This document shows, in pieces, positions 2,494 to 30,021 of a stretch of DNA of 64,000 bases. The notes under the pieces are model-generated. The model worked only from the letters and a program-made list of their open reading frames with translations. It did no database searches and was not told the origin of the DNA. A program made the position numbers and the translations under genes. The stretch comes from Flavobacterium segetis. Its GTDB lineage: Bacteria; Bacteroidota; Bacteroidia; Flavobacteriales; Flavobacteriaceae. The DNA is taken from contig NZ_FQWE01000004.1 in assembly GCF_900129575.1 (NCBI RefSeq), positions 124,001-188,000 on the forward strand, given 5' to 3'. Each line of letters starts with the position of its first letter. The first letter of the stretch is position 1.

Positions 2494-3459
2494 TTGATTA
2501 CAAGAGAAAATATATTGGCTAGTGCCAAAAAAACAATCTTATCGGAAAGTCAATCTATCGCAAAATTAGCGGATTACCTTGATGAAAGCTTTATCGATGC
2601 AGCAGAAAAAATATATAATTCCACAGGACGATTAGTTATTACGGGGATAGGTAAAAGCGCAATAATAGCTCAAAAGATGGTTGCTTCATTCAATTCTACT
2701 GGAACTCCGTCACTTTTTTTACATGCTTCAGAGGCAATTCACGGTGATTTAGGCATGATTCAAAATGAAGATGTTATTATATGTATATCTAAAAGTGGCA
2801 ACAGCCCCGAAATTAAAGTTCTTGTTCCATTATTGAAACGATTTGGAAATATCTTGGTCGCTATCACAGGAAACATGACTTCTTTCTTAGCAAAAGGTTC
2901 AGATATTGTTCTCAACACAACCGTTGATTCCGAGTCCTGCCCTAACAATCTAGCACCCACAAATAGCACAACAGCACAGCTAGTTATGGGCGATGCTCTT
3001 GTGGTTTGTCTTATGGAAATGCGTGGTTTTCAGCCTCAAGATTTTGCTATTTATCATCCTGGAGGTGCTTTAGGTAAGAAACTATTACTAAAAGTAAAAG
3101 ACATGCTGGAAAACTCATTAAAACCCCAAGTGAATCCAGATGCACCAATAAAAAAAGTTATTTTCGAAATCTCTGAGAAGCGACTTGGAGTTACTGCTGT
3201 TGTAGATAATGACAAAGTAATTGGTATCATTACCGATGGTGATATCAGAAGAATGCTTAACGAGAGAGATTCATTTACCGAATTAACTGCAAAAGATATA
3301 ATGACAATAAATCCAAAAATGACCTCATCTAATGAAATGGTTGTTGAAGCACTAAATATAATGGAAGACTTTTCCATCACTCAACTAGTTGTTGTTGACA
3401 ACGGAGAATATAAAGGAGTACTGCATTTACATGATATTTTAAAAGAAGGAATAGTATAA
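2494..3459 (+). CDS. kdsD: Arabinose-5-phosphate isomerase (KpsF/GutQ/KdsD family), 321 aa
   Basis: The enzyme converts ribulose 5-phosphate to arabinose 5-phosphate, the first step to Kdo for lipopolysaccharide. An N-terminal SIS domain (about residues 25-165) carries TGIGKSAIIA, HASEAIHGDLG and SKSGNSPE, then HPGGALGKKL leads into two CBS domains (about 190-321). The TTG at 2494 is preferred to the ATG at 2428. It gives MITRENILASAKK, the usual family beginning and a 321-residue length, whereas the ATG adds 22 residues encoded by the recQ promoter region. The gene overlaps tatC by one base (TAATG), so the two are co-transcribed. It links this operon functionally to lptB downstream and to the polysaccharide locus. 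Confidence 0.9.
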   Translation: MITRENILASAKKTILSESQSIAKLADYLDESFIDAAEKIYNSTGRLVITGIGKSAIIAQKMVASFNSTGTPSLFLHASEAIHGDLGMIQNEDVIICISKSGNSPEIKVLVPLLKRFGNILVAITGNMTSFLAKGSDIVLNTTVDSESCPNNLAPTNSTTAQLVMGDALVVCLMEMRGFQPQDFAIYHPGGALGKKLLLKVKDMLENSLKPQVNPDAPIKKVIFEISEKRLGVTAVVDNDKVIGIITDGDIRRMLNERDSFTELTAKDIMTINPKMTSSNEMVVEALNIMEDFSITQLVVVDNGEYKGVLHLHDILKEGIV

Positions 3460-4719: not shown

Positions 4720-5460
4720 ATGAAATTAAGAGCCGAAAATCTTGTCAAAACTTATAAAGGACGCAGTGTTGTTAAAGGCATTTCGGTAGAGGTGAATCAA
4801 GGTGAAATTGTTGGACTTTTAGGTCCAAACGGTGCTGGCAAAACAACTTCTTTTTACATGATCGTGGGTTTAGTGAAGCCAAATTCAGGGAATATTTATC
4901 TTGATGATTTAGATATTACGGATTACCCAATGTATAAAAGAGCACAACAGGGAATTGGTTACTTGGCACAAGAAGCATCCGTTTTTAGAAAGTTAAGTAT
5001 TGAGGATAATATTTTAAGTGTCCTACAATTAACTAAACTTTCAAAAGCAGAACAAGAAGCTAAAATGGAAAGTTTAATAGATGAATTTAGCTTAGAACAC
5101 ATCAGAACAAATCGAGGTGATTTACTTTCAGGAGGAGAGCGAAGACGAACTGAAATCGCGCGATGTCTTGCAACCGATCCAAAATTTATATTATTAGATG
5201 AGCCATTTGCAGGAGTTGATCCCGTTGCTGTAGAGGATATTCAACGTATTGTGGCTCAGTTAAAAAATAAAAATATTGGTATTTTAATTACAGATCATAA
5301 CGTTCAAGAAACGCTAGCTATTACTGATAAAACGTACTTAATGTTTGAAGGAGGGATCTTAAAAGCAGGGATTCCAGAAGAATTAGTAGAAGATGAAATG
5401 GTGCGTAGGGTTTATTTAGGACAAAATTTTGAGTTGCGAAAAAAGAAATTAGAATTTTAA
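4720..5460 (+). CDS. lptB: LPS export ABC transporter ATP-binding protein LptB, 246 aa
   Basis: LptB is the cytoplasmic ATPase that drives lipopolysaccharide extraction from the inner membrane by LptFG. It shows Walker A GPNGAGKTTS, the Q-loop region YLAQEASVFRKLS, signature LSGGERRR, Walker B FILLDEPFAGVDP and switch ITDHNVQET. The EASVFRKL and FAGVDPVAVEDIQ stretches are specific to LptB within the ABC family. The ATG at 4720 follows an A-rich leader and gives MKLRAENLVKTYKGR; a TTG at 4693 in the same frame would add nine lysine-rich residues and cannot be excluded. No lptF/G gene is adjacent, which is common in this phylum. Confidence 0.93.
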   Translation: MKLRAENLVKTYKGRSVVKGISVEVNQGEIVGLLGPNGAGKTTSFYMIVGLVKPNSGNIYLDDLDITDYPMYKRAQQGIGYLAQEASVFRKLSIEDNILSVLQLTKLSKAEQEAKMESLIDEFSLEHIRTNRGDLLSGGERRRTEIARCLATDPKFILLDEPFAGVDPVAVEDIQRIVAQLKNKNIGILITDHNVQETLAITDKTYLMFEGGILKAGIPEELVEDEMVRRVYLGQNFELRKKKLEF

Positions 5461-5546
5461 TTTCAACAAAATTAGTCTCAACTTAAAAAGGAAAAACCGC
5501 AAAAAATTTTAAAGCTAAATAAATAATAACCTAAAAAGATAGACAA

Positions 5547-5771
5547 ATGTCAAATAATTCAGAACCCTCAGATGAAACTAAAAGAAGATGGCATCAAGAT
5601 CCAAACAATTGGTTTTTAGGATTCTTTTATTTTAATAGAGAAGACAAGCGGATTTTTCCTCCAAAAAGAATAGCGTGGATGGGCTGGACAATAAACTTTG
5701 CAAACCCTATTTCAGTAATTACATTATTGATTTTTTTATTATTAGTTTTCACCATGGTCAACCTAAAATAA
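5547..5771 (+). CDS. Small membrane protein, DUF5808-like, 74 aa
   Basis: The first 50 residues carry the pattern WHQDPNNWFLGFFYFNREDK then IFPPKRIAWMGWTINFANP, which I recognise as the DUF5808 type of motif (dry, aromatic, with PKR..GWT.NFANP). One hydrophobic segment of about 20 residues follows near the C-terminus (VITLLIFLLLVFTMV). The predicted topology is a single-pass protein with the conserved motif on one face of the membrane. Function unknown. It stands alone between lptB and the convergent lysozyme gene. Confidence 0.7.
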   Translation: MSNNSEPSDETKRRWHQDPNNWFLGFFYFNREDKRIFPPKRIAWMGWTINFANPISVITLLIFLLLVFTMVNLK

Positions 5772-19029: not shown

Positions 19030-19902
19030 CTAGTTAAAAAAGTCTTCTATAATTCTTGTAGTAAACAGTGTGGCTCCTTTATCATTCAAGTGACCGCAGG
19101 AAGAGAAATAGTGATCATCAGTAACTACACTTTCGTAATTGTGTATTTCTGGATAGATGGCATTTACTTTTTCAAAATAATCAAGACCTTTCGTATTGCT
19201 GCACATTGGCGTCATAACTGCAATTAAGTTAATTTTATTAGCTGCACAAATTTGTTTAATTTCTTCGTAGTATTTATTTTTTATTGGCTTTAAAGCCCTT
19301 ATATCATTTTTCATTTTTCCTTTATTGCCTTTTAGGGCATAAAAACCACCATTATTTAAAGTATTAGTTGGCTGGAAAGTTAGACACTTATACATCTCCC
19401 GAAAGCCAATAGAAGCATCGAATTTCAAATAACGATAAAATGGAATATAATATAATTTTGAAAAATCATCTTCCTTACTGAAATGATTTTCTACTACCTT
19501 AGAGCTGTGAATGTAAGGCAAAAACTTAGAAGCAATGCCTTCTGCTCTTTTTTCATTAGACAAATTAAGATCCGCCTCTACTATTACGTTTTTAATTTTA
19601 TATTCTCTCTCTATCATCAATTTTAGCATTAAAGAAGCTTCAAATAAATGGCCGCCGCTCATTCCATAATTAAAAGCTTTCAATCCCTTCTCTTCAAATA
19701 AATGTGTAACAAAATGATTATTAGCTCTAGAAGATCCTAAAATAACGACATCATAAATTCTTGGCTTCGAATTGTAAACATAATCAATTTTACCACGGTT
19801 AGATGCTTGTAAATATACTACCGTGTAAAGCACATCTAGTAGCGCTAGGGTGAGAACTAGAATAACAGTTATTTTGGCAAAAAAGCCGAGAAATTTTTTC
19901 AT
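19030..19902 (-). CDS. SGNH/GDSL-like protein, probable polysaccharide O-acetylation partner, 290 aa
   Basis: A single N-terminal membrane segment (about residues 8-30) precedes a periplasmic domain. The SGNH-type block I motif VVILGSSRANNHF is near 52-64, with the serine after GS, and a late Asp/His block lies in SSCGHLNDKGATLFTTRI near 268-285. This architecture resembles DltD/AlgJ-like partners that work with MBOAT acyltransferases. The MBOAT gene is the next polysaccharide gene upstream, but a GxxExxY gene and repeats lie between them. Acetyl transfer to the surface glycan is an inference from this pairing. Confidence 0.7.
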   Translation of the reverse strand: MKKFLGFFAKITVILVLTLALLDVLYTVVYLQASNRGKIDYVYNSKPRIYDVVILGSSRANNHFVTHLFEEKGLKAFNYGMSGGHLFEASLMLKLMIEREYKIKNVIVEADLNLSNEKRAEGIASKFLPYIHSSKVVENHFSKEDDFSKLYYIPFYRYLKFDASIGFREMYKCLTFQPTNTLNNGGFYALKGNKGKMKNDIRALKPIKNKYYEEIKQICAANKINLIAVMTPMCSNTKGLDYFEKVNAIYPEIHNYESVVTDDHYFSSCGHLNDKGATLFTTRIIEDFFN

Positions 19903-20008
19903 TTAAGCGTTTGTTTTTTCTTGACAACCTAATTATATTATAAATTATAAAACTAGAATTTTTCAAAGTATTATTTTATTTGAAAAAGCTATGTTTCTTA
20001 AAATCTTA

Positions 20009-20024
20009 CCACATAAAATCATAG
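20009..20024 (+). repeat. Inverted, isolated copy of the 139-bp repeat core
   Basis: CCACATAAAATCATAG is the reverse complement, with one mismatch, of the core CTATGATTCTATGTGG found in the tandem units on the far side of the GxxExxY gene (for example 20959-20974). The gene therefore has the same core on both sides in opposite orientation. It lies in an otherwise featureless AT-rich gap (19903-20171). Confidence 0.5.
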
Positions 20025-20171
20025 ACTTCTTAAATATAGAAGACATTTCATTTATGATAGAAAAAAATAGTCTAATTAGTGCTTAGATTGGATTTATTAT
20101 TCTGATAAGATCTAATTTTTAAACAATTTTATATAATTTTCTGACCATCAGAATATCTGGTACTTGCGTTA

Positions 20172-20594
20172 CTATTTTTGTTCTATTGGTAATTTTCTAT
20201 AATATTCGTTTACAAAAGTTTTTTGTCCTTCTCTAAAAATATTGAAACAATTAAAATTTATCAAAACACCTTTTGGAGATTTCAATAAATTCAAATGATT
20301 CAAAAGCTTAGCATCAAAAGCAGGATGCATTTCTGTAACAGCTTTTAATTCAACAACTATTAAACCTTCAACAAACAAATCACATCTAAAATCGCAATCC
20401 ATCTCTTTCCCTTTAAAAACAACAGGAATTTTGAGTTCTGAAACAAAATTAATATTTCTCAATCTTAGCTCTTCTTTTAAACATTGGTGATAAACACTCT
20501 CTAGTAATCCTCTTCCCATAATTTTATGAACTTCAATTGCTACTCCAATTATTTTAAAGCTTAATTCGTTTAAATATTTCTGAGTAACCATCAT
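20172..20594 (-). CDS. GxxExxY protein, PD-(D/E)xK nuclease-like, 140 aa
   Basis: The family motif GLLESVY is at residues 29-35 after FKIIGVAIEVHKIMGRG. A probable nuclease core follows: CDFRCDLFVEGLIVVELKAV gives D72 and E82-x-K84, the D...ExK arrangement of the PD-(D/E)xK superfamily. Length is normal for the family. The biological role of these proteins is not established. The gene is an intruder in the polysaccharide locus, sitting between the acetylation genes SGNH and MBOAT in the same direction, with tandem repeats directly upstream from 20636. Translation could start at either of the two initial methionines. Confidence 0.88.
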   Translation of the reverse strand: MMVTQKYLNELSFKIIGVAIEVHKIMGRGLLESVYHQCLKEELRLRNINFVSELKIPVVFKGKEMDCDFRCDLFVEGLIVVELKAVTEMHPAFDAKLLNHLNLLKSPKGVLINFNCFNIFREGQKTFVNEYYRKLPIEQK

Positions 20595-20635
20595 AAATAT
20601 ATTTTAATTGGTTCATGAATTTATATTTTTTGTAA

Positions 20636-21133
20636 TCTCTTTTCTGTAAAAATGAAATGCCTTTTATTCATTCCCTCAATCCTATAATTCTATGTAGGCA
20701 AAAATCTTTCTTGTTTTATTCTTTTACGTAAGTTGTTTAAATGATACAAACCGTTGCAACTTGTTTAAAAACTCTCTTTTCTAAAAAAATTGAAATACCT
20801 TTTATTCCTTGCTACAATCCTATGATTCTATGCGGCTAAAAATCTATCTTGTTTTTATTCTTTTACTAAAGTTGTTTAGATGAAACAAACCGTTACACCT
20901 TGTTAAAAAACTATGTTTTCTATAAAAAAGGAAATACCTTTTTTTTATTAACACGATCCTATGATTCTATGTGGCTAAAAATCCTTCTTATTTTTATTCT
21001 TTTACTAATGCTGTTTCAATTAAACAAATTGTTTCAACTTATTTAAAAACTCTGTTTTCTATAAAAAATGAAATATTCTCTATTAATTCCTACAATCCTA
21101 TGATTCTATGCGGCTAAAAATCCTTCTAGTTTT
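20636..21133. repeat. Tandem array of about 139-bp noncoding units, three full plus partial copies
   Basis: The same block recurs with its CCTATrATTCTATG core at 20681, 20819, 20958 and 21097, giving spacings of 138, 139 and 139 bases. A partial unit begins near 20636, and the last copy is cut off at the MBOAT stop codon. Units are diverged (visible substitutions throughout), AT-rich, and contain stops in all frames. No conserved strong hairpin and no spacers are seen, so this is not a CRISPR array. It is directly upstream of the GxxExxY start codon and could be read through from the MBOAT gene. Confidence 0.9.
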
Positions 21134-22567
21134 TTAAAACTGAAAATAGATAAACTCCTTATAGTCGCTAAAAGTACCTAGCGCAACAATAGCTATCAAA
21201 CAAAAACTTAACTTCAACCAGGAATTTTTTCCTGAAATAGGTTCTACCTGATGTTTAAAATTCCACTCCACTGCAATAAAAGCAAAAATAAGTAATACCA
21301 ATTCATAATTGTAACGCTCGTTTTCAAGATATTGAGAGTCAAAACTAAGATCAGTAAACAGTCGCTTGATATAATCAAAAGCATCTCCAATCGATTTTGC
21401 TCTAAAAAATATCCAAGCTAAACAAGTCAATGCAAATGTGCTTAAAATATTAAAAAAGACTCGAACAGAACTAAAGTTCCAGCTCAACGAGACCATTTCC
21501 ATATTAGATCGATTCGTTTTCAATAATAGTAACGGCAGAAAATAAAGCGCATTTATAAATCCCCAGGCAATGAAAGTCCAATTAGCGCCATGCCAAAAAC
21601 CGCTTACTAAAAAAATTATAAAAGTGTTTCTTATTTTCATTGGCATTCCGCCATTGCTTCCCCCTAACGGAATATACAAATAGTCCCGAAACCAAGATGA
21701 TAGCGAAATATGCCATCGGCGCCAAAACTCGGCTATATCTCGCGAGAAGTAGGGATAATTAAAATTTCGCAACAAATCGATCCCAAATAATTTTGACATA
21801 CCTAATGCCATATCAGAATATCCTGAAAAATCTCCATAGATTTGAAAGGCAAAATATACCGCACCTAGAGCTAATGACAACGAATTCATCGATTCATGGT
21901 TGTCAAAAATAGCATTGGCGTAGGTAGCGCAAGTGTCAGCGATGACTACTTTCTTAACCAATCCCCATGTGAATTGAAAAACGCCTTCCTTCGCTTTTTG
22001 AAAATCAAAGTTGCGTTTTACTTTTACTTGCGGTAATAAATGTGTAGCTCTCTCAATGGGTCCGGCAACGAGCAAAGGAAAATAACTAACAAATAGAGAA
22101 TAATCAATAAAATTATATTCGGCCTTTATTCTTTTCAGATAAATGTCAATTACATAAGATAAACCGTGAAAAGTATAGAAAGAAATACCCACGGGAAGAA
22201 TAACATTTAACAGTAGCGGACTCGTTTGCAGTCCAAAACCGTTTAACATTGTAGAAAACGAATCGGCAAAGAAATTATAATATTTAAAAACACCAAGAAA
22301 ACCAAGATTGATAGTTATGCTTAACCAAAACCAAAATTTTCGAACGCCGTCTTTCTTTGCTTTTTCAATTTGAATTCCAGTATAGTAATCTAAGAAGGTA
22401 GAAAAAACTAGCAAGAATAAAAAACGCCAGTCCCAGCAAGAATAAAAATAATAACTAGCAATGATTAAAATAGCATTTTGGGTGCTTTTGTTTTTATTAA
22501 ATACAAACCAATATAAAACAAATACAATAGGGAGGAAAATGGCAAAAGATAGGGAATTGAAAAACAT
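21134..22567 (-). CDS. MBOAT-family O-acyltransferase (AlgI-like), 477 aa
   Basis: This polytopic enzyme has about eleven hydrophobic segments and begins MFFNSLSFAIFLPIVFVLYW, the standard start of AlgI-type proteins. Conserved stretches include LPVGISFYTFHGLSYVIDIY, FPLLVAGPIERA, the FWRRWHISLSSWFRDYLYIPLGG block (about 262-285) and the catalytic histidine in FLVSGFWHGANWTFIAWG (about 315-332). It would move acetyl groups across the inner membrane for O-acetylation of the glycan, with the SGNH protein at 19030-19902 as likely periplasmic partner. Nineteen bases separate it from the GT4 gene stop upstream. Confidence 0.93.
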   Translation of the reverse strand: MFFNSLSFAIFLPIVFVLYWFVFNKNKSTQNAILIIASYYFYSCWDWRFLFLLVFSTFLDYYTGIQIEKAKKDGVRKFWFWLSITINLGFLGVFKYYNFFADSFSTMLNGFGLQTSPLLLNVILPVGISFYTFHGLSYVIDIYLKRIKAEYNFIDYSLFVSYFPLLVAGPIERATHLLPQVKVKRNFDFQKAKEGVFQFTWGLVKKVVIADTCATYANAIFDNHESMNSLSLALGAVYFAFQIYGDFSGYSDMALGMSKLFGIDLLRNFNYPYFSRDIAEFWRRWHISLSSWFRDYLYIPLGGSNGGMPMKIRNTFIIFLVSGFWHGANWTFIAWGFINALYFLPLLLLKTNRSNMEMVSLSWNFSSVRVFFNILSTFALTCLAWIFFRAKSIGDAFDYIKRLFTDLSFDSQYLENERYNYELVLLIFAFIAVEWNFKHQVEPISGKNSWLKLSFCLIAIVALGTFSDYKEFIYFQF

Positions 22568-28759: not shown

Positions 28760-28974
28760 CCTCAATTATAAAACGGATCGTAAGCCTGAGCTCAGTCTTT
28801 CTAGAGATTGACGAAAAGTCGAAGACTTCTTCTGTAATAACTAAAATCGCTTTTATATCAAAATACTTTGACAGGCTCAGTGTGACAATTTTAAACAAAC
28901 CTTAATTATAAAGACAAGGCTTTAATATAAACCACTTCGACAGGCTCAGCGTGGCAATTTAAATTAGCTATTAA
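28760..28974. repeat. Degenerate flavobacterial intergenic repeats between neuC and neuB
   Basis: Two related copies, 28865-28890 and 28934-28960, share the core GACAGGCTCAG(T/C)GTG at 69-base spacing. Each is followed by TTAATTATAA-like sequence, which also occurs near 28761. A third, more diverged relative (GAGCTCAGTCTTTC) is near 28788. Such CTCAG-core sequences are common repeat remnants in Flavobacteriia. The block fills most of the only large gap in the neu operon. Confidence 0.65.
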
Positions 28975-30021
28975 TTATAAAAACGACTGTCGGTCTGCGC
29001 TTGTTGAAGATAAATCCTCCTGATTCAAAAAATCCCACTGATTTAGGTTTCTATTTAAAACCTTTCCTATAACTTCTTGAAATCGTGATGCGTCAATACC
29101 GTATCCTTTTGGCTTTTTAGCTTCTAAATCATCAAAGGTCAGAATATGATTTAGAGGCAAATCCCTGTTTACTGCTAATGATTTTTCAAATATTTGTTTT
29201 AAGTCTGTAAAGTTTTCATTTGAATTCTTATCAGTTGGATTTTGCATTGCTAATGCTATATTTCGAACGGAAATCACCAATTCTTTGATTTCATGAATAG
29301 TTAATGATGACGTGGAGTCGGGACCATAAAGTTGCCTATCAAAAACGACGTGAAATTCTAAAATTTCAGCACCTAGAACAGTTGCTGCAATACAGGTTTC
29401 AACCCTAGCTGAATGATCCGAAAAACCTACCGCAACTCCATATCTTTCCTTTAATTCTTGAATTATATTTAAACCAAATTGTTCTGGTTTTGTGGGATAA
29501 GCCGTGGTACATTGCAAAATAGAAAATTCGATATTTTTATTTTTTAGAAAAGCAACCGTCTCATCTAACTCTGTATACGAACTCATACCTGATGATAACA
29601 TCACAGGCTTGCCCGTTTGTGCAATTTTTTCTAAAATCAAGAGATTATTAATCTCACCAGAACCCAATTTATACTGTAAAACTCCCATTTCTTCAAGCCA
29701 ATCGACGGCCAAATTACTAAATGGGGAACAGATAAAATCTAATCCTAATTTATCACAATATTGTTTAATGCCTTTCCATTGCTCTAAGGAAAAACCCATA
29801 CGCTTCCAATAATCAAAACGAGTTTTGTCTTCTTTCGAAAACTGCACTCTAAAAGGTTCGTATTCGCTGCTTTCCGCTTCAGCAATATGCATTTGAAATT
29901 TTACTGCATCAACTCCAGTTTTTGCTACAGCATAAATATAAGAATATAATATTCCTAAACTTCCTTCGTGCGCTTGACCAATTTCGGCGATGATATAGGG
30001 TGATTGCTTTTTGATTGCCAT
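28975..30021 (-). CDS. neuB: N-acetylneuraminate synthase family protein, 348 aa
   Basis: The enzyme condenses phosphoenolpyruvate with ManNAc or a similar hexosamine. The barrel domain contains PYIIAEIGQAHEGSLG, DAVKFQMH, FICSPFSNLAVDWLEEMGV, YKLGSGEINNLLILEKI, PVMLSSGMSSYTELDE and GFSDHSARVETCIAATVLGA with EFHVVFDR. A C-terminal SAF/antifreeze-like domain follows (about 270-335; KSLAVNRDLPLNHILTFDDL). Substrate choice between Neu5Ac, legionaminic and related acids is undetermined. The last residues (after NQEDLSS) are encoded next to the intergenic repeats and may be repeat-derived. Confidence 0.88.
   Translation of the reverse strand: MAIKKQSPYIIAEIGQAHEGSLGILYSYIYAVAKTGVDAVKFQMHIAEAESSEYEPFRVQFSKEDKTRFDYWKRMGFSLEQWKGIKQYCDKLGLDFICSPFSNLAVDWLEEMGVLQYKLGSGEINNLLILEKIAQTGKPVMLSSGMSSYTELDETVAFLKNKNIEFSILQCTTAYPTKPEQFGLNIIQELKERYGVAVGFSDHSARVETCIAATVLGAEILEFHVVFDRQLYGPDSTSSLTIHEIKELVISVRNIALAMQNPTDKNSNENFTDLKQIFEKSLAVNRDLPLNHILTFDDLEAKKPKGYGIDASRFQEVIGKVLNRNLNQWDFLNQEDLSSTSADRQSFL

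Follow-up and report, generated by a model that had tools for sequence, protein, structure and literature searches.

A GxxExxY nuclease gene and its inverted repeat arms in Flavobacterium segetis: probable copy of a REPIN/RAYT-like selfish system

Introduction

Do a small nuclease gene and the repeats that bracket it belong to one element, and what could move such an element? This question is raised by a locus of Flavobacterium segetis located in a stretch of 64,000 nucleotides, called here the window. A preliminary description of this DNA had proposed that a gene coding for a GxxExxY protein and the repeats on its two sides move or act together. A search of the open-licence literature (preprints excluded) found neither a function for GxxExxY proteins nor a link between them and repeats; in the same literature, the arm sequences described below appeared in unrelated contexts only and no connection of these arms with MITEs was found.

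Results

The window gene lies between a tandem array and a single inverted unit

The GxxExxY gene, identified from the ORF list and by profile searches, is located at 20172..20594 on the minus strand. It is intact and codes for a protein of 140 aa that matches TIGR04256 (GxxExxY; E 2.4e-35, 121.4 bits against a cut-off of 35) and PF13366 (PDDEXK_3; E 2.9e-34, 118.4 bits against a cut-off of 22), which bears out its earlier assignment to the PD-(D/E)xK type. Residues G29, E32 and Y35 form the GxxExxY motif, and D72, E82 and K84 the triad. On the 5' side of the gene, a tandem-repeat search delimited an array of 3.6 units with a period of 139 bp (20636..21134, 82% matches), referred to here as the 5' arm. 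Four cores, all on the minus strand, were read in this array at 20681..20698, 20819..20835, 20958..20974 and 21097..21113; on the plus strand, the first reads CCTATAATTCTATGTAGG, the second and the fourth CCTATGATTCTATGCGG, and the third CCTATGATTCTATGTGG. The 3' arm is a single inverted partial unit on the plus strand (20009..~20064) made of the core CCACATAAAATCATAG (20009-20024) and an adjoining ATTTCAT block, and was delimited from the sequence and by self-comparison. Both the array of about 139-bp units before the gene and the inverted core beyond it are therefore as originally described. However, the asymmetry of an array on one side and a single copy on the other proved to be only one case of a more general layout, in which inverted arms lie on both sides of the gene.

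The window element sits in a glycan cluster, between an MBOAT gene (21134-22567, minus strand), the stop codon of which marks the end of the array, and a gene coding for a 290-aa protein without a Pfam match (19030-19902); it is not in 23S rRNA. Pfam identified MBOAT, glycosyltransferase, Wzy-like, asparagine synthase and cytidylyltransferase proteins among the neighbours, mostly encoded by glycan-synthesis genes. As previously noted, no transposase or integrase is found nearby; the Pfam scan covered 13 proteins of the window. A scan of 19800-21300 against Rfam matched no family up to E 5, and a long DNA query with the array returned the array itself as the sole match in its own genome. Elsewhere in the window, two direct copies with a period of 69 and a GACAGGCTCAGYGTGRCA motif (28849-28981) resemble the repeat flanking a GIY-YIG gene (L113, 2080-2374); no GIY-YIG-like ORF of at least 80 aa was noticed beside them in the ORF list.

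D72, E82 and K84 are invariant in all 36 proteins compared, and E32 nearly so. The window gene and its homologue in genome G029 differ by a dN of 0.097 and a dS of 1.11, and the protein is kept by purifying selection in this one pair. The AlphaFold2 model of the window protein (pLDDT 96.7, pTM 0.90) has as its nearest solved fold SSO0001, which we take to be a Cas4 (Z 9.2, 100 residues, rmsd 3.9, 20% identity, VIA comparison). Many other chains, nucleases among them, follow at Z 5-7.5. Foldseek returned no match to the model at E <= 0.001; its list includes I-Bth0305I, presumably a homing enzyme of the PD-(D/E)XK type. A sequence search of solved structures gave no match, the top chains being S100 proteins at E 0.16 and above.

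Inverted arms bracket GxxExxY genes in the host and its relatives

Five further GxxExxY loci and one fragment are present in the host genome; one of the five is broken and one has an in-frame stop. In self-comparisons, four of the five genes proved to be bracketed by inverted repeats, whereas the last locus has downstream direct repeats and a weak inverted match (score 28). Arm sequences differ from locus to locus, and include AATTCGT, CACAAATT, CGCAGATT, CATATAAG and CAAAG/CTAAG types. Overall, the family was matched in 36 of 60 genomes (the host included), often in several copies, relatives being understood here by kinship as assigned by the search tool. By hand count, 119 near-full-length rows were obtained, 8 of them with in-frame stops, and 100 regions selected from these rows were fetched. 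They contain 109 distinct loci, 106 with both flanks, in a set that over-represents the best-scoring homologues.

Each locus was given an arm score by local alignment of its upstream flank with the reverse complement of its downstream flank. The threshold of 32, like those used below for other phyla (30) and for core counts (24), was picked after the data had been seen. Inverted arms reached a score of 32 at 88 of the 106 GxxExxY loci versus 11 of 346 neighbouring genes. The score across the window gene is 40 and the other five host copies score 28-39; the 99th percentile of the neighbouring-gene scores is 45.55, in a tail that holds an N-run artefact and other repeat-bracketed genes. When flanks were mispaired, 450 of 11,130 pairs (4%) scored at least 32, as did 18 of the 106 loci when the flanks were compared in the same strand orientation. 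Furthermore, the true partner was the best of the 106 downstream flanks for 38 loci and among the top three for 75. Since mispaired flanks use the same DNA, chance adjacency, composition and low complexity are ruled out as the source of the signal: GxxExxY genes and inverted repeats are associated. The 88 armed loci fall into 35 context groups and are thus not independent of each other.

The armed loci have a median arm length of 33.5 and median distances from the gene model of 45 upstream and 32 downstream. Internal direct repeats occur in 64 of 84 upstream arms (59 with a lag of 8-10) against 13% of shuffles, and by eye the arms consist of 2-4 direct units of ~8-10 bp, as in the runs ACACATAGAAACATAG and CGCAGATTCGCAGATT. 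Among the 11 loci scoring below 28, two have sub-threshold arms and about nine appear by eye to be armless even in 1.5 kb. An ACC-type start as an outer-end motif was weak (35/88 vs 23% of shuffles) and is not claimed.

Arms of another type than those of the window gene also occur on their own: the host genome contains 19 matches to CRCARATT-N0-4-CRCARATT (control 4), among which 12 distinct sites are gene-less by hand count. At L002, 10-bp AATTCG units surround an rfbB-like gene and, again, a GxxExxY gene (199-225, 303-391, 1442-1459, 1855-1933), and it is possible that arms spread around neighbouring genes.

Arm type follows the protein subfamily

Arm similarity rises with protein identity among pairs of loci from different contexts (3,666 of 3,828 pairs; rho 0.25, 0/999 permutations), and also when each of the 35 context groups is represented by a single locus (rho 0.32, 0/999 permutations). 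Arms were also compared among 30 homologues for which DNA was available, window copy included; 16 of them are at least 59% identical to the window protein. With falling identity, the arms pass from CATAG to CATATAAG and on to CATTAAG. The CATAG core is inverted on both sides in 11 of the 16 homologues at 59% or above; in this group, it is degenerate in L353 and L362, found on one side only in L354, and missing from L355, the downstream flank of which is cut by the contig end, and L364 (60% identical) has CATATAAG arms. All eight other homologues at 53-59% are of the CATATAAG type and all five at 41-45% of the CATTAAG type. A homologue from G022, 50% identical, carries CATAG-core arrays on both sides, in the form of runs of ~81-bp hairpin-like units with the window core.

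Homologues that lack the window core do exist: distant ones have another core, which changes by degrees as the proteins diverge, and no arms at all are seen at about 9 of the 106 loci. Such grading would be expected of a site recognised by the protein. Joint descent would give part of it too, and similar arms on similar proteins could reflect this descent rather than recognition.

The layout recurs in other phyla and around other small genes

A pattern scan of named genomes yielded at least 80 GxxExxY loci, 73 of which have both flanks. Among these listed loci, 39 of 73 reached a score of 30 and 37 reached 32, compared to 4.7% and 2.9% of 1,095 mispaired pairs, respectively. The other 34 fell under 30, a lower rate of armed loci than in the relatives of the host. 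Using phylum labels assigned by hand from record titles, 22 of the 41 listed loci from Bacteroidota and 17 of the 32 from elsewhere scored at least 30; two of these 32 are unclassified bacteria, both positive, leaving 15 of 30 without them. Positive loci outside Bacteroidota among the matches listed belong to Planctomycetota, Alphaproteobacteria, Acidobacteriota, Gemmatimonadota and Methanosarcinales, with arms such as ACCACAGAGACACAGAG, ACCACGAAGGACACGAAG and similar.

The 11 neighbouring genes above threshold comprise two S23 genes (PF05635), one GIY-YIG gene, one DUF559 gene, one N-run artefact and six others. In a direct test, 15 of 30 S23 copies scored at least 32 versus 1.1% of mispaired flanks; by eye, their arms are made of short, mostly heptamer-like units. 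Among the fetched loci, arms were found at one of two GIY-YIG genes, one of one DUF559 gene and two of three S23 genes. At L041, two S23 (PF05635) genes located near a GxxExxY gene each lie between inverted AGT-type arms (2351-2726, 5247-5619), and at L112 a DUF559 gene lies between 39-nt inverted arms GGTTTCCCCTCC...GGGGT (2809-3226). An array of TAACCGATAACAGACAAC-type units that resembles S23 heptamer arms follows an rfbA-like gene at L002 (3033-3286; C16 of the host genome).

The window core is amplified in relatives as gene-less inverted doublets

Matches to the 16-nt core, with two mismatches at most, were counted across 61 genomes, using the reversed pattern as a control (0-3 matches per strand). 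Ten of the 61 genomes are rich in the core, with 73+86, 53+60, 50+53, 35+43, 33+35, 29+38, 29+30, 27+18, 19+19 and 15+9 matches on the two strands, hence up to 159 matches per genome. The host genome has 1+5 matches (control 1+0), five of which belong by reading to the window locus, so the core is not multiplied there. Amplification of the core is a feature of relatives and not of the host. A homologue at least 58% identical is present in 8 of the 10 core-rich genomes (at least 24 matches) versus 8 of the 51 others (Fisher p 1.5e-4, with counts made by eye and thresholds set after the data were seen). The gene is broken in the core-rich genomes G006, G015 and G080, and G004 and G008 have no close homologue.

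Many core matches listed for G006 and G075 form inverted pairs. Reading of 19 fetched regions provided 24 complete doublets, 22 of 119-147 bp and two of 241 bp. The 22 shorter ones were aligned, one of them (L262) in the orientation opposite to that proposed by the script. Their 16-nt ends are nearly invariant, and conservation extends to the inner blocks AAAGGCGTTTCAC, CACATAG..CTATGTG and GAAACTAGTTTC. The ends of the gene-less doublets also enclose a GxxExxY gene in G006; a stop replaces its catalytic Glu codon, and this long form encodes only the GxxExxY gene, with no DDE transposase. Hence the core is indeed widespread without the gene, yet the copies read are inverted doublets that have the ends of the gene-bearing copy.

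The window array resembles a diverged run of doublet-type units, with a CATAGAATCATAG core and a AAAGGTATTTCAT block. Aligned with the 24 doublets, it gave local scores of 25-41; shuffled sequences have a 99th percentile of 29.6, exceeded by 11 of the 24, and a maximum of 42. Judged from these alignments, homology of the array with the doublets over the whole unit is likely but not proven. A two-sided change was found in only 1 of 16 outer-stem pairs of the doublets, hence covariation does not independently argue for a structure, be it RNA or cruciform.

Insertion sites empty in relatives and turnover of the repeats

The comparison of empty sites suggested in the preliminary description yielded two G006 insertion sites that are empty in relatives, but none for the window copy. 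At site 1, the orthologous spacers of G072, G076, G004 and G075 lack the doublet seen in G006. In G080, this site holds a decayed copy flanked on both sides by AAAATAAC, a sequence that the empty G072 and G076 alleles contain once; G006 lacks the duplicate on the right, and G065 has a different repeat pair at the same place with an imperfect ~16-bp duplication. At site 2, G006 harbours a shortened copy with the left 16-nt end only, flanked by AAACAATAA (15 bp, one mismatch), which is single in G072, G015, G065 and G076. By reading, the target at both sites includes the stop codon of the preceding gene. Because the lengths of the duplications vary (8 bp, 9 bp exact or 15 bp with one mismatch, and ~16 bp imperfect) and ~14-24 bases separate the duplication from the arm, the true ends of the element are not fixed; in both respects the insertions differ from those of a classical cut-and-paste element. 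No repeat is present at either of the empty sites read; there, the repeat thus arrived with the insertion.

Site B of G006 and one further site are empty in relatives and have no clean duplication. Of the other candidates, site C was read in two relatives, one of which has it filled and one of which carries a different repeat there. Three relatives have other inserts at site D, and the flank of a fourth is too diverged; site E is filled in all four relatives read.

Gene-bearing copies of the high-copy subfamily occupy one orthologous place in eight species, by reading between two ABC-transporter genes, suggesting that the gene itself may rarely move. The gene is all that the window copy has in common with its 82% identical relative in G029 over the 11 kb and 8.3 kb compared. 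In the asnS|rpoN and miaB|regulator spacers (30 loci each), elements are variously present, absent or replaced by different repeat pairs, and turnover at the asnS|rpoN site is rapid. Some species have a GxxExxY element in this spacer (L139-L168), others an inverted pair of the CTAAG type without a gene, and still others a heptamer-like palindrome. Some elements are nested inside other repeats. Paired ACCTAACAGGTTT...AAACCTGTTAGG palindromes, another class of repeats that differs between species, were observed at L251 (7262-7320) and L300 (3119-3172).

Discussion

Together, these observations make it probable that the window locus represents one copy of a REPIN/RAYT-like selfish system composed of a GxxExxY nuclease and of inverted arms recognised by the protein or its complex. 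Gene and repeats together have the appearance of a single small mobile element, since the arms match the protein subfamily, gene-less copies are scattered and the layout recurs. Of the initial proposal that they move or act together, the first requirement, that they belong together, is sustained by the controls, the subfamily-following arms and the G022 arrays; mobility of the window copy, like catalysis by its protein, is inferred. By analogy with known systems, GxxExxY proteins would recognise, cleave and copy DNA and act in trans. The GxxExxY protein, or a complex containing it, would recognise the inverted arms, the nuclease would cut within or beside either the arms or the target, and repair would install a copy and leave a short duplication. 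Because gene-less units have multiplied in some genomes, both solo arms and 119-147-bp doublets are probably mobilised in trans, as is proposed for REPINs and RAYT proteins. The 5' arm of the window copy would later have expanded into the 139-bp tandem array.

In REPIN-RAYT systems, REP doublets accompany a Y1/HUH TnpA_REP protein (PMC3116915). There, too, a nuclease gene is flanked by cognate repeats, which are also scattered as singlets or inverted doublets and clustered beside the gene; there is a single gene per type, and gene copies differ in repeat type within one genome (PMC3116915). All of these features are shared with GxxExxY elements. Dispersal of the gene-flanking repeat as inverted doublets is seen here in relatives and not in the host genome. 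Conversely, the GxxExxY enzyme is of the PD-(D/E)XK type and not HUH (Pfam and NCBIfam give only PDDEXK_3 and GxxExxY), and because it belongs to a different protein family, it is not a RAYT. Its arms are runs of 8-10-bp direct units instead of single palindromic REPs, and its gene lies between inverted arms in many phyla as well as in archaea. REP palindromes reportedly carry a GTAG or CGTC tag; palindromes tagged in this way were not seen by eye in GxxExxY arms. GxxExxY elements are thus best read, by analogy, as a variant on the REPIN/RAYT plan with an unrelated enzyme.

The 23S rRNA intervening sequence of Coxiella has tandem heptamers (GACAGAT) before an S23 ORF (PMC4990558). It too is a small selfish insert with one small ORF, and orphan S23 genes also lie between inverted arms at 15 of the 30 copies examined here, but its protein has an unrelated fold and the sequence sits in rRNA, from which RNase III removes it (PMC4990558). 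Cas4/RecB-like PD-(D/E)XK proteins include the solved fold closest to the window model, SSO0001; identity over this alignment is 20%, and a shared fold does not amount to a shared function.

MITEs and TIR transposons also resemble the elements described here, with inverted ends common to gene-bearing and short gene-less forms and with direct duplications at two sites. The arms could accordingly be the ends of elements moved in trans by an unlinked DDE or HUH transposase, with GxxExxY as cargo, for instance a defence or repair nuclease. TIR-like arms and duplications of 8-16 bp do resemble DDE products. Yet the arm type tracks the GxxExxY subfamily over 35 context groups, and each subfamily would therefore need its own transposase. 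Furthermore, no transposase was found among the window proteins scanned, the layout recurs across phyla with the GxxExxY family, duplications vary in length, and additional bases lie outside the arms. The absence of a DDE enzyme from the long form read also indicates that this is not a classical TIR transposon, and we regard movement by an unlinked transposase as unlikely.

Alternatively, the arms could be palindromic transcription terminators or mRNA-stability hairpins between which a small gene survives. In many of the asnS|rpoN and miaB|regulator spacers, gene-less palindromes directly follow a stop codon, which is in keeping with such a role. However, terminators would predict neither subfamily-specific arms nor high-copy, near-identical doublets nor empty sites, and they fit poorly with the low rate at neighbouring genes (11/346) and with the single two-sided change in 16 outer-stem pairs, which makes this explanation very improbable. 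Least plausible of all is a homing or hotspot scenario in which the nuclease cuts pre-existing dispersed repeats and the GxxExxY gene is copied in, as the solo arms at 12 host sites, the nesting of some elements in other repeats and the presence of I-Bth0305I in the Foldseek list would allow, because the two empty sites carry no repeat and gene-bearing copies keep both arms, inverted.

A broader and considerably more tentative proposal can be made: a single-domain PD-(D/E)XK nuclease may, on its own, mobilise a class of elements in bacteria and archaea, with a lineage-specific code of 8-10-bp arms and doublets copied in trans, and GxxExxY, S23 four-helix-bundle and perhaps GIY-YIG/DUF559 proteins could be parallel inventions of this lifestyle. 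Were this true, the lifestyle of GxxExxY, S23 and perhaps GIY-YIG/DUF559 genes would explain many of the short interspersed repeats in such genomes. For GxxExxY, a curated but orphan family, a cognate DNA partner would suggest where short repeats of the CACAGAG, CGCAAAG and CACGAATT types come from and would provide REPIN/RAYT with a counterpart that is neither HUH nor DDE. It would also make of the family a testable enzyme-substrate pair, for which the correspondence between subfamily and arm may serve as a ready specificity code for biochemistry.
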